DNA from: a virus
DNA: 39,028 bases
IMG/VR virus record: IMGVR_UViG_3300012000_000019
Location: 19,341-58,368 of that record
Strand: one strand, 5' to 3'
Shown here: positions 3,927-6,674 of the stretch, in pieces
How positions within the stretch are numbered: position 1 is the first letter of the stretch
Layout of the letters: every line of letters begins with the position of its first letter
Translations under genes and position numbers: made by a program
Notes under the pieces: generated by a model
Databases searched by the model: none
What the model was told of the DNA's origin: nothing
Seen by the model: the letters and a program-made list of their open reading frames with translations, nothing else

Positions 3927-3954
3927 GAAGAGAGTCTAACATACAAGATCTTTG

Positions 3955-4027
3955 TAGCGGTGATGAGATTTGAACTCACACTGGCACGGACCTAAACCGT
4001 GTGCCTCTGCCATTGGGCTACACCGCC
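3955..4027 (-). tRNA. tRNA-Leu (anticodon TAG) with short variable arm
   Basis: 73 nt. Acceptor GGCGGTG/CACCGCT ends in G1-U72. The D-arm is GCC...GGC, the anticodon stem CACGG/CCGTG perfect with loop TTTAGGT (34-36 TAG, G37), and the T-arm GTGAG-TTCAAAT-CTCAT. The discriminator is A. The variable loop is only five bases (CCAGT), whereas cellular tRNA-Leu carries a long class II arm. It reads CUA. One base separates it from tRNA-Pro. Confidence 0.88.
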
Positions 4028-4028
4028 G

Positions 4029-4102
4029 TCGGGACGACAGGATTCGAACCTGCGACTTCTGCGTCCCAAACGCAGCGCTCTACCAAGCTGAGCTACATCC
4101 CG
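4029..4102 (-). tRNA. tRNA-Pro (anticodon TGG)
   Basis: 74 nt. Acceptor CGGGATG/CGTCCCG, D-arm GCTC/GAGC, anticodon stem CTGCG/CGCAG with loop TTTGGGA, T-arm GCAGG-TTCGAAT-CCTGT, discriminator A. It reads CCA. Its first ten bases overlap the end of the DUF1232 gene. Confidence 0.94.
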
Positions 4103-4308
4103 TTGATGTTGAACTCCGGAATATGTTTACGCACATACCGAGTAACTAGCACCACTAGAACAATATCATCTAACTGACCTAGCCCAGGGATGAAATCAGG
4201 AATTAAATCAATTGGAGAAAGTAAATAAATTATAGATAAAACAAGAATAAGTTTTACATGCCAAGGAGCAGACTCTACGGCCCTCCATGCTTTTTTAATT
4301 TTATTCAT
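4093..4308 (-). CDS. DUF1232 (YkvA-like) small membrane protein
   Basis: 71 aa. [20 protein letters not shown] followed by [18 protein letters not shown] is the DUF1232 signature: two hydrophobic helices joined by a conserved LSPIDLIPD / G..DD loop. The role in phages is unknown; a membrane location is inferred from the helices. It is the first gene after the terminator at 4355-4377 and heads the tRNA/thyX operon. Its stop codon TAG is U8-A9-G10 of the following tRNA-Pro, the same arrangement as HNH/tRNA-Arg. Confidence 0.85.
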
Positions 4309-4354
4309 GAGATCAATCTACTAGCTAAAAAGTTAGAGACAAAATAAAACACAA

Positions 4355-4377
4355 AACCCCCTCACTGTGAGGGGGTT
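4355..4377 (-). terminator. Intrinsic terminator of the orphan RNA
   Basis: Ten paired bases (CCCCCTCA/TGAGGGGG extended by AA/TT), a 3-base loop, and on the minus strand TTTTGTGTTTTATTTT straight after the stem. This is a textbook Rho-independent terminator at the 3' end of the 4355-4601 transcript. Confidence 0.88.
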
Positions 4378-4601
4378 GTGCACCTGCGGACTTGTACACC
4401 GCTAAGCCCGCGTACTACGGGGGTTATATTGAGTGGGTGGATTGCATTTTACCACCACGGGTTTCCAGCAATACATAGTAGTACCGCACCCGACTTCCCC
4501 TTTTACCCGCTAAGGCAGGGCGCTAACCCGGGGAATGCTTTAGGCCCTCACTGGAAAGGCACATTCAGCCATCACTCCGCTTGGACCGTCGCCCTTGCGT
4601 T
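4355..4601 (-). ncRNA. Orphan structured non-coding RNA (about 245 nt), family not recognised
   Basis: No protein-like ORF lies here, yet the segment has its own consensus promoter (4608-4638) and a terminator at its end. It is GC-rich against its surroundings and rich in matching arms: 4551-4557 with 4462-4468 (7 bp), 4478-4484 with 4412-4418 (7 bp), 4530-4535 with 4495-4500 (6 bp), and a local hairpin 4452-4456/4436-4440. AGGGCG near the 5' end can pair with CGCCCT in the middle. The motif TTAGCG appears three times. It lacks the hallmarks of tmRNA, RNase P, SRP or 6S RNA that I can check by eye. Its position beside a phage tRNA cluster recalls the large ornate RNAs GOLLD and ROOL, but it is much shorter. 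One plus-strand frame crosses it, but it has no SD and no protein character. Confidence 0.72.
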
Positions 4602-4607
4602 ATAGAT

Positions 4608-4638
4608 ACTGTAGCACAACTTTATGATTATTTGTCAA
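4608..4638 (-). promoter_or_regulatory. Promoter of the orphan RNA
   Basis: Minus-strand -35 TTGACA (4633-4638, exact consensus) and -10 TACAGT (4608-4613), with 19 bases between and GTGC directly before the -10. Expected start is near 4600. It lies just downstream of the lysin terminator, so the RNA is an independent transcription unit. Confidence 0.7.
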
Positions 4639-4651
4639 ATTAAATAAAAAA

Positions 4652-4688
4652 AGCAGACCCGGTGATCACGAATGTGGCCAGGTCTGCT
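4652..4688 (-). terminator. Terminator after the lysin gene
   Basis: AGCAGACC/GGTCTGCT stem extended by GG/CC after one mismatch, followed on the minus strand by TTTTTTTATTT. It lies 14 bases after the lysin stop. The plus-strand side is also T-rich, so it may work in both directions. Confidence 0.85.
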
Positions 4689-4701
4689 TTCTTATTTTAG
4701 C

Positions 4702-5866
4702 TTACTTTTTGGTGGTACCAGCATTCGCGATTGCAAGTGTTGCAAAGGGGGCTGCGAGGTTACCGACAACAGCGAGTAGGACGATCATCCAGGATGGAGC
4801 CGGCAATCCAGAAGCAACAATACCGATCGAGACATTGCTGACAACTAGAGAAACTAGACCATAAAGGGCGTAAGCGAGCTTACGACTCTTTGCTTTTGGA
4901 ATGAGAATTCCGAGGGCATCTTGAGCTGCATTATTTGCATCATCGGGTAGTGAAGGTACAGTTGGCACGGTTGGCACAGTTGGTTCCTTAATTGGTTTGG
5001 TGGGTTTGGTGGGTTTGGTTGGTCGTGTCGGCTTTACGGGCTTGACGGGTTCAGGTTTAGCCGGCTCGGGTTTTACGGGCTCAGGCTTTACGGGCTCAGG
5101 AGTGGGAGTGGGAGTGGGAGTGGGAGTGGGAGTGGGAGTGGGAGCAGGCGCTGTATCTTCTTTCAACGACTGAACAAATCCAGCCCAAGAGAGTGGGCCA
5201 AGAACTCCATCAATTACTCCGGGAGGAGCATAGTTAGCGTTCTTTTGACCATACATTTGAACTCCTCTATACGTTTTAGGTCCAGGAATTCCGTCAATTG
5301 CTCCATCATAGAGTCCATATTTTGTTAGCCATGTTTGTGTAGCTTTCCAAGACTTAGGTCCAAAAACGCCATCAATAGGTCCACTATAAAGACCTACATT
5401 TGCAAGTATTTGCTGAGCAGCAGCCATGCTGGCATTGATCCCAGAAGAAGAGGAGGAGGGGCTAGATTCATTGAACCACGGCTGCACATCTTCACGTCCA
5501 CCGCCGGGGTTGATGATGTGGACGTGTACGTGAGGCCCCGTTGAGGATCCCGCTCCAGGCGCACCTGCAGCCCCTCCGGTGTAGCCAAGAAGATCGCCCG
5601 TATTTACATTGCGGTTAGTGCCTTCAAAAGATGAGCAGTGCAAAAACTGCATTTTGTATCCGGGGCTGTCAGCAAGGGCAAGGGTGATGATGTACCCACC
5701 AGACCCAGATCCGTATTCGTAACTTGCTTACATAGCCGGGATTGGGCGAATAGATTGGGGTACCTACGGGAGTGGCATAGTCAGTCCCGCCAAGAGACCC
5801 GCGGGCGCGGTGAGCTGCCCAGTCATCGCTAACTGGATATTTTGAAAAAGGATTGGGCATTCCCAT
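4702..5866 (-). CDS. M23 peptidase endolysin with peptidoglycan-binding repeats and holin-like C-terminus, interrupted by a frameshift
   Basis: Two frames, 5669-5866 and an open frame running to 4702, form one protein of 387 aa if one base is skipped between 5728 and 5672. The first part (DDWAAHRARGSLGGTDYATPVGTP) carries the zinc His and Asp of an M23 metallopeptidase. The second continues the fold (YEYGSGSGGYIITLALAD, then FLHCSS) and ends it with GPHVHVHI, the HxH zinc motif. Three peptidoglycan-binding repeats of the type LYSGPIDGVFGPKSW follow, at about residues 145-231. Next is a PT/KPEP/KPTKP linker of about 70 aa, then two hydrophobic helices (LAYALYGLVSLVV..., SWMIVLLAVVG...) and a basic end, resembling actinophage holins. 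The internal ATG at 5652 has no SD, so a separate second gene is unlikely. The indel may be real or an assembly error. Confidence 0.82.
4980..5142. repeat. Tandem codon repeats encoding the lysin linker
   Basis: Seven perfect copies of AGTGGG at 5101-5142 encode Pro-Thr pairs on the minus strand. Imperfect 12-base and 9-base repeats at about 4980-5100 encode KPEP and KPT units. Such tracts expand and contract by slippage, so linker length is likely to vary between relatives. Confidence 0.85.
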
Positions 5867-5957
5867 GTATATAATTCTCCAATGTAATTAGTTCTGTAAT
5901 ACAAGTGTATCGTATAACGACGGTCTATCTTTTTAATTAAGTAGTGAAAGATCTAAA

Positions 5958-6674
5958 TTATGCGTAACCCTTATCCAAGGTGGCATAGTATGTGGTCCCA
6001 ATATAAGAAATGGTAAGAATGTCAATAGCATTTGCTGCAGTAGAGAGAGTTTTAACCCCACCAGCAAATTTCATAGTGGAACTCAAAAGACGCCCCCCAA
6101 CTGCATCTTGAGTCAGAATCAATCTGATTGTTTGCCCGCTTAGTGGCGAAGAAAAACCGTTTATAGTTGTATTTCCCGTAAGTGTCACTGTTTGAATTGG
6201 GCCATTAATAGGATTGGGAGTGAGAGTCGCGGAATAAGTCAGTGAGTATACATTTTGACGTATGGTTGCATTTTGAGCTATATCAGCAGCATCCTGGATC
6301 GAAGTTAGATACGCAGTAGCAAGTTCAGTACCAGGATTTGGCAAAGCAGTTGATGGATCTATGTCTACTAATTCGTCAAAATCAAATGGTCCAGTCCCGG
6401 CTGGAAGTATCACATCTCGACGGAGAGGTGTTTTACTATCTGACCAAACAATTATTTTCCAGTAGCAGTCAATTGGAATAGTTGCAAGATTTAGATCGTG
6501 CTGAGGAACTCCATTAATAATGTCCACAGTAACTGGTGCGGGAAAAATAACATCTTCTCCGACATAACGAACAGCCCTTTGACCACCACGATAAACATAT
6601 GCGGATATGGTAGCGCTCACCGGAGATGTACCACCAAGAATGTCCTTGAGGGTGCTCAGGTTGATGATGGGCAT
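5958..6674 (-). CDS. Tail-fibre/receptor-type structural protein
   Basis: 238 aa with SD AGGAG six bases before the ATG. The N-terminal half is all-beta (SATISAYVYRGGQRAV...GVPQHDLNLATIPIDCYWKI). The C-terminal 90 residues (NTTINGFSSPLSGQTIRLIL, TQDAVGGRLL, FAGGVKTLSTAANAIDIL, YIGTTYYATLDKGYA) match the common tip module at the end of many phage fibres and tail proteins. The central IQDAADIAQNATIRQNV segment is a likely trimerisation helix. It sits between the glycosyltransferase and the lysin, away from the main tail module. The fibre role is inferred from the tip fold. Confidence 0.65.
   Translation of the reverse strand: MPIINLSTLKDILGGTSPVSATISAYVYRGGQRAVRYVGEDVIFPAPVTVDIINGVPQHDLNLATIPIDCYWKIIVWSDSKTPLRRDVILPAGTGPFDFDELVDIDPSTALPNPGTELATAYLTSIQDAADIAQNATIRQNVYSLTYSATLTPNPINGPIQTVTLTGNTTINGFSSPLSGQTIRLILTQDAVGGRLLSSTMKFAGGVKTLSTAANAIDILTISYIGTTYYATLDKGYA

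Follow-up and report, generated by a model that had tools for sequence, protein, structure and literature searches.

A minus-strand RNA in a 39,028-base window out of a 58,368-base IMG/VR virus record is a divergent relative of manA RNA, a family that Rfam (RF01745) types as Cis-reg. Its homology, its fold and the layout of its loci, either as a promoter-RNA-terminator unit or within a tRNA array, have been established by computation. We consider it probable that this is a stand-alone phage RNA of the manA lineage which would be transcribed, processed and act in trans. A first-pass annotation of the same DNA had described here a gene for a structured RNA, with a promoter and a terminator of its own, and suspected an orphan of an undescribed family; the gene is present at that place, whereas the family proved to be a known one. 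Features of the locus are summarized in Table 1.

Table 1. Features of the manA-like RNA and its neighbours in the window.
Feature	Position	Strand	Basis or remark
Lysin-like gene, upstream	5652-4702	-	peptidoglycan-binding domain; endolysin-like PHROG matches
Promoter	4608..4638	-	TTGACA 4638-4633, 19-nt spacer, extended -10 TGC-TACAGT 4616-4608 (TACAGT 4613-4608, TGC directly 5′)
Conserved manA-like RNA core	4431..4599	-	RF01745 and model R1, full length; covariation
5′ hairpin (helix 1)	4578..4599	-	8 of 8 pairs with both sides changed in some sequence
P3 hairpin	4544..4560	-	stem GCCUUU/GAGGGC, loop CCAGU (4554-4550)
Twin-hairpin arm	4495..4535	-	hairpins 4529-4518 and 4516-4505, UUAGCG loops; helices 5-7
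GCUGG, pseudoknot partner of P3 loop 4554-4550	4465..4469	-	permutation test; helix 4
Last hairpin	4436..4456	-	GGUGG/CCACC, conserved loop UAAAAUGCAAU; helix 9, 100% of cells paired
3′ extension	4378..4430	-	third TTAGCG; compared only with near-identical L027
Intrinsic terminator	4355..4377	-	terminator scan; T tract
DUF1232 protein gene, next downstream	4093..4308	-	PF06803, E 5.5e-15; context, outside the RNA
tRNA-Leu and tRNA-Pro	3954..4102	-	ARAGORN; nearest tRNA 328 nt after core; context

Identification as manA RNA

The minus strand of 4426-4598 aligns with the Rfam model RF01745 (manA RNA) over its full length (model positions 1-192), scoring 48.7 bits with an E-value of 1.2e-11 in a scan of 4310-4700 and 4.4e-13 over the whole record. 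This is below the gathering score of the family (55.2 bits), so a scan at curated thresholds misses it; such a scan of the whole window reported five tRNAs only. ARAGORN also found five tRNAs and no tmRNA in the window, and at curated thresholds the window has no match to tmRNA, RNase P, 6S or SRP RNA, in agreement with the first-pass annotation. GOLLD and ROOL are likewise unmatched in the window at curated thresholds and absent from the E-value matches of 4310-4700; the second-best family in the E-value scan reached E 0.014, far below its own cut-off. Among named phages, RF01745 scores 72.9 bits in Rhodococcus phage Francesca, and 38.5 and 37.1 bits in the Corynebacterium phages Zion and Darwin, respectively.

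We also built a model, R1, from 23 tRNA-adjacent relatives, leaving out the clade of the window RNA. R1 matched the window at exactly 4431-4599 (114.5 bits, E 2.5e-36) and recovered all 12 held-out relatives over the full model. It further recovered at full length all 21 loci given to it from the marine-type scan described below (13 of its 50) and from named cyanophages (eight), with E-values from 7.8e-16 to 4.1e-8; RF01745 itself scores the eight cyanophage loci at 168.8-193 bits. Because R1, made from tRNA-adjacent sequences, and RF01745 match reciprocally and at full length, the window RNA and the marine-type manA RNAs are, by these sequence models, one family, in which the window RNA falls in a divergent branch with twin UUAGCG hairpins. 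It is R1 and the relatives scoring above the cut-off that tie the window RNA to manA, in place of the undescribed family supposed earlier.

Collection of relatives

Relatives were collected by scans with the conserved motif of the last hairpin, and the counts given here thus describe the sequences caught by these motifs and not all manA RNAs. The pattern TGGTGGTAAAANNCAATCCACC retrieved 49 stretches of viral contigs, all of which match RF01745 (32 above the cut-off), while none of 14 control genomes does. Of the 65 stretches retrieved by a looser pattern, 23 were new; taking these together with three named phages, 15 of the 26 match RF01745 at E <=0.001 and four exceed the cut-off. A marine-type pattern gave 50 stretches, with 48 matching and 47 above the cut-off; those without a match are L087, which is cut at the contig end, and L102. 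In the collection of species genomes the core motif occurred twice, both matching R1 over 22 positions only, and these two are taken as non-homologues.

Dereplication at over 92% identity placed 77 entries in 41 clusters, from which 67 entries in 35 clusters were kept. Six clusters were dropped as chance hits (L106, L128, L107, L118, L126, L127, L120, L124, L129, L130); the eight viral entries among them have no RF01745 match, and R1 gives no match for L120 and, for the other nine of the ten, one confined to 15-22 positions (E 5e-6 for L129 and L130). L038 is truncated and was omitted. L108, L109 and L115 were kept, though RF01745 gave no candidate there, because L117 and L125, from the cluster of L108 and L115, do match. 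L059, L081, L087 and L102 were excluded from the marine analysis of upstream regions and T runs, and L022 from the folding of terminators against manA.

Similarity searches by blastn added no members. The window RNA had no match among plasmids; L022 matched three plasmid records, rejected as the matches fall on tRNA-Ser. Among phages, the Francesca RNA matched itself only, L122 and L022 had no match, and L041 had no near match. A very divergent and longer manA-like RNA was seen in L081 (8235-8468, minus strand; R1 35.6 bits, RF01745 29.2 bits); a tRNA-Ser follows it after 14 nt, and its locus has 28 tRNAs by ARAGORN.

Conserved fold and pseudoknot

The strong evidence for the fold comes from covariation in an alignment of the 35 dereplicated sequences. 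RNAalifold predicted 40 pairs, and in 33 of them both sides have changed in at least one sequence, so that the helices of the manA fold covary among homologues, which the first-pass annotation had proposed to examine. When the pseudoknot is included (46 pairs), 92.1% of cells pair versus 70.0% in shuffles, and the covariation score is 0.583 versus 0.190; none of 500 shuffles reached any of five measures, with the caveat that relatedness can inflate such a shuffle control. Versions of the structure slid along the alignment pair in 34.5-45.6% of cells, a comparison in which a consensus-derived structure favours the unslid version. Folded singly, the sequence did only mildly better than its shuffles, of which 4 in 200 equalled it (z -1.79), and this was dropped as too weak an argument.

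The pseudoknot was addressed by a permutation test that needs little alignment, comparing the pairing of each P3 loop with its own partner and with the partners of other sequences. Own partners scored 17.14 versus 12.07 for swapped ones (sd 0.42; 0 of 10000 permutations as high); helix 4 represents this pairing in the alignment, where the rows of the window's clade are gapped. The same test gave 13.91 versus 10.80 for the P3 stem (0 of 10000) and weak support for the upper hairpin of P5 (11.97 versus 10.94; 8 of 10000), and no signal for three control segment pairs. Three copies of TTAGCG had been noticed in the sequence at first sight; all are present, and two of them form the twin-hairpin loops kept in the family, the third lying in the 3′ extension. 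By eye, this extension may also form an H-type pseudoknot (GCGGGC/GUCCGC with GUGUAC/GUGCAC).

No sense ORF of at least 60 aa crosses the RNA, as had been reported, although the statement that the region holds no ORF did not stand entirely, as a 75-aa ORF runs antisense at 4378-4605 (plus strand). Among 14 relatives, an open sense frame over the core occurs in none and an open antisense frame in six; as the other eight have no open antisense frame, a coding role of the antisense ORF was rejected. Inspection by eye led us to discard a mini reading frame that follows GGAG (AUG GCU GAA stop), since it is kept neither in Zion nor in L035 and a ribosome site would have no space, as well as a likeness of the 3′ arm to the anti-Shine-Dalgarno sequence, which only the marine type shows. 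In the records of P-HM2 (L131 1570-1744; PHM2_011, PHM2_012) and S-SSM5 (L137 1528-1734; SSSM5_127), small hypothetical proteins overlie manA on its own strand; these are probably not genes.

Promoter and terminator of the window RNA

The lysin-like gene, the RNA, the DUF1232 gene, tRNA-Pro and tRNA-Leu all lie on the same strand, and the RNA sits between lysin and tRNA cluster as first described. The -35 and -10 elements pointed out earlier can be read in the sequence, with 10 of 12 consensus bases in a scan allowing spacers of 15-19 nt. A scan limited to 16-18 nt does not list this promoter, its spacer being 19 nt, and in that scan promoter-like sites were no commoner than in shuffles (1 versus a mean of 1.4). 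From the promoter we infer a start at about 4601, 2 nt ahead of the first paired base (4599).

The strong terminator claimed for the 3′ end is listed by our scan, which found four terminator-like sites in 1301 bases versus 1.2 in shuffles; in folding its probability of forming is 0.87, and that of pairing with the manA part <=0.01. The expected transcript is about 245 nt, as had been proposed, of which only 4599-4431 (169 nt) is conserved RNA. Just 3′ of the lysin-like gene and directly before the RNA promoter, a hairpin with a T run is visible by eye at 4640-4690 (minus strand), probably the terminator of the lysin-like gene. Within that gene, a repetitive stretch at 5000-5145 (minus strand) appears by eye to code for a Pro-Thr/Pro-Glu-Lys-rich linker.

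tRNA arrays and stand-alone copies among relatives

We counted a relative as tRNA-adjacent when a same-strand tRNA lies at most 30 nt upstream or at most 60 nt downstream of it. This holds for 24 of 35 relatives, compared with 296 of 9280 random tRNA-free intervals from the same loci, and the count is probably a lower bound as some tRNAs directly upstream of manA are detected by Rfam and missed by ARAGORN (L014, L028). The spacing is tight: ten of the 35 follow a tRNA at exactly 3 nt, six end 4-6 nt before one, and eight are flanked by tRNAs on both sides, at most 15 nt upstream and 60 nt downstream. In the Corynebacterium phages Zion and Darwin the order is tRNA-Trp, RNA, tRNA-Ser; in Rhodococcus phage Francesca tRNA-Met, RNA, tRNA-Lys; and in P1201, a phage of Corynebacterium glutamicum, tRNA-Arg, RNA, tRNA-Gly. 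Some deposited tRNA strands are opposite to the ARAGORN and Rfam calls, namely the listed tRNAs of Zion and Darwin (L003 2845-3341, L005 2829-3512) and the tRNA-Gly of P1201 (L139 1973-2047). In L043, a tmRNA (RF00023, 84.1 bits; 5898-6158, minus strand) was seen in the same tRNA array as manA.

A terminator follows 8 of the 11 relatives that have no close tRNA, versus 19 of 660 random 113-nt stretches from the same loci, and 6 of the 24 tRNA-adjacent ones, versus 26 of 1440 random stretches of that length. In all 13 folded transcripts the terminator pairs with manA at <=0.05 and forms with p >=0.87. Promoter scores of at least 9 were obtained in 5 of 20 sequences with no tRNA seen within 60 nt upstream (null 3.2%) and in none of the 15 that follow a tRNA (null 1.1%), the null here being single-letter shuffles, whereas that of the marine-type promoters below keeps dinucleotides. 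Several observations count against a stand-alone gene: the scan found no terminator in three of the 11 stand-alone copies (L035, L050, L122), the closing helix was weak in two folds (0.42 in L023, 0.47 in L110), and eight of the 20 copies not seen following a tRNA have no promoter-like site.

Marine-type and cyanophage manA

Marine-type loci are mostly tRNA-free. A promoter with at least 11 of 12 consensus bases stands just before the RNA in 24 of 31 distinct upstream regions (0.2% of shuffles), and a run of at least four T begins or lies within 14 nt after the searched 3′ motif in 30 of 31, although these loci are closely related and the counts are not independent. Of the 47 loci with a downstream ORF, 37 precede a gene whose product starts MSF..LKK; three such products were scanned, and all three, like the annotated gp32 of P-HM2, match ssDNA-binding proteins of phages. 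This association fits cis control of gp32 in the marine lineage and speaks against the stand-alone reading. In L063, the downstream gene is a transaldolase.

Six different neighbourhoods occur among the eight named cyanophages. In P-HM2 the RNA precedes gp32; it follows ferredoxin in P-SSM7, pstS in P-SSM3 and the major capsid gene in MED4-213, P-RSM4 and S-SSM5; in P-SSM2 it lies between regA and purL; and in P-TIM68 it precedes a gene whose annotation is on the other strand. The main text of the RNA-seq paper on P-HM2 infection (PMC5082946) does not contain the locus tag that covers manA.

Stand-alone RNA or cis-regulatory leader?

It is well supported that the RNA of this branch is a gene of its own, by the adjacency to tRNAs in 24 of 35 relatives and the terminators in 8 of 11; this agrees with what was first claimed for the window, conflicts with the class given to the known family, and puts the cis-regulatory reading of that family in doubt. 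In the mechanism that we propose, the window RNA would be transcribed from its own promoter, begin at the 5′ hairpin and end at its own terminator. RNase P and tRNA 3′ maturation enzymes process tRNA precursors. Relatives in tRNA arrays would be co-transcribed with the tRNAs and may be released as RNase P and the tRNA 3′-end enzymes mature their neighbours. The RNA is then predicted to fold into a closed multistem with a loop pseudoknot and the twin UUAGCG hairpins, and would act in trans. A role on translation or on the tRNA pool during infection, suggested by the company of tRNAs alone, is possible but doubtful. We extend the reading only tentatively, at somewhat less than even chances, to the whole manA class, an orphan cis-regulatory riboswitch candidate since 2010, which could be an autonomous, trans-acting phage RNA. 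It would then join GOLLD and ROOL as a structured phage RNA linked to tRNA arrays, be freed by tRNA processing, and serve translation or the struggle for tRNAs in the infected cell.

A narrower form of this reading holds that the stand-alone RNA counters a host defence directed at tRNAs or RNA, as its decoy or its inhibitor. The RNA travels with phage tRNAs that would answer the same attack, embedded on the same strand in their arrays, and its homologues come from viral records, the two pattern matches in species genomes being non-homologous; but tRNA company by itself is no proof of function, and we regard this form as unlikely.

A cis-acting riboswitch or leader that would respond to a ligand and govern termination upstream of the DUF1232 gene (4308-4093) is also quite unlikely, although it has the Rfam type and the original assignment of 2010 (PMC2864571) on its side, as well as a terminator between the RNA and a same-strand gene, and the gp32-like gene after 37 of 47 marine-type loci. 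A promoter and a T run fit a riboswitch too, whereas the tRNA arrays and the changing neighbours agree badly with one. In none of the 13 folds does the terminator compete with the manA fold, the next feature in tRNA arrays is a tRNA as near as 4 nt, and the first ORFs downstream of stand-alone copies look unrelated by eye; the eight named cyanophages have six different neighbourhoods, one of them with an opposite-strand gene next. Nor does the window RNA show the layout of a cis-regulatory 5′ UTR of a metabolic gene, having a non-competing terminator of its own, a DUF1232 gene downstream and relatives in tRNA arrays. Cis control may nevertheless operate in the cyanophage lineage.

That the RNA is a processing or spacing element of tRNA-array transcripts, functionless once cut out, would account for the constant distance to the upstream tRNA (exactly 3 nt in 10 of 35), yet it is highly improbable given the 11 of 35 without a close tRNA by ARAGORN, eight of them with their own terminator, and the mostly tRNA-free marine-type loci. 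A new RNA family resembling manA by convergence, to which the score under the Rfam cut-off and a P4 arm departing from the manA consensus might point, is barely credible, as independently built models match reciprocally at full length, RF01745 matches none of the 14 control genomes, and the R1 result effectively contradicts it.

If manA is a free-standing RNA travelling with the tRNA arrays of phages, looking for a ligand and a regulated gene is misdirected, and the question becomes its role in trans. P1201 of Corynebacterium glutamicum, with the RNA between two tRNAs, offers a cultured system for manA, and a subfamily model would recover members that the Rfam threshold drops.

Comparison with known systems

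Weinberg et al. (2010; PMC2864571) classified manA as a certain RNA, a certain cis-regulatory element and a probable riboswitch; they placed it in potential 5′ UTRs and recorded it from marine metagenomes, cyanophages and two gammaproteobacteria. The family has no established function and is carried in annotation as a cis-regulatory element, a label kept in the reports of S-CREM1 (PMC9964418) and S-CREM2 (PMC10665884). Rfam 14 (PMC7779021) gives 48 significant pairs for a structure derived from the source alignment. In the open-licence literature accessible to us, no report was found that treats the actinophage branch or describes manA as a gene of its own.

The window RNA shares with manA RF01745 the full-length covariance match, the closing helix and multistem core, and the last hairpin with its UA-A---AAU loop. 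The pseudoknot, marked uncertain in PMC2864571, is strongly supported in the branch of the window RNA. This branch differs in that the window RNA falls under the gathering score, in the twin UUAGCG hairpins of the P4 arm, and in lying mostly beside or inside tRNA arrays or in a promoter-RNA-terminator unit, with no evident 5′ UTR. By its published description, the Bifidobacterium megaplasmid pMP7017 (PMC10832533) carries a manA motif of 178 bp together with a tRNA array and a tmRNA; that copy differs in being plasmid-borne and is called cis-regulatory there. GOLLD and ROOL, as described in PMC12286853, are alike in being structured phage or prophage RNAs of unknown function that often occur near tRNA islands; GOLLD is often over 800 nt, and both differ from the window RNA in sequence and fold.
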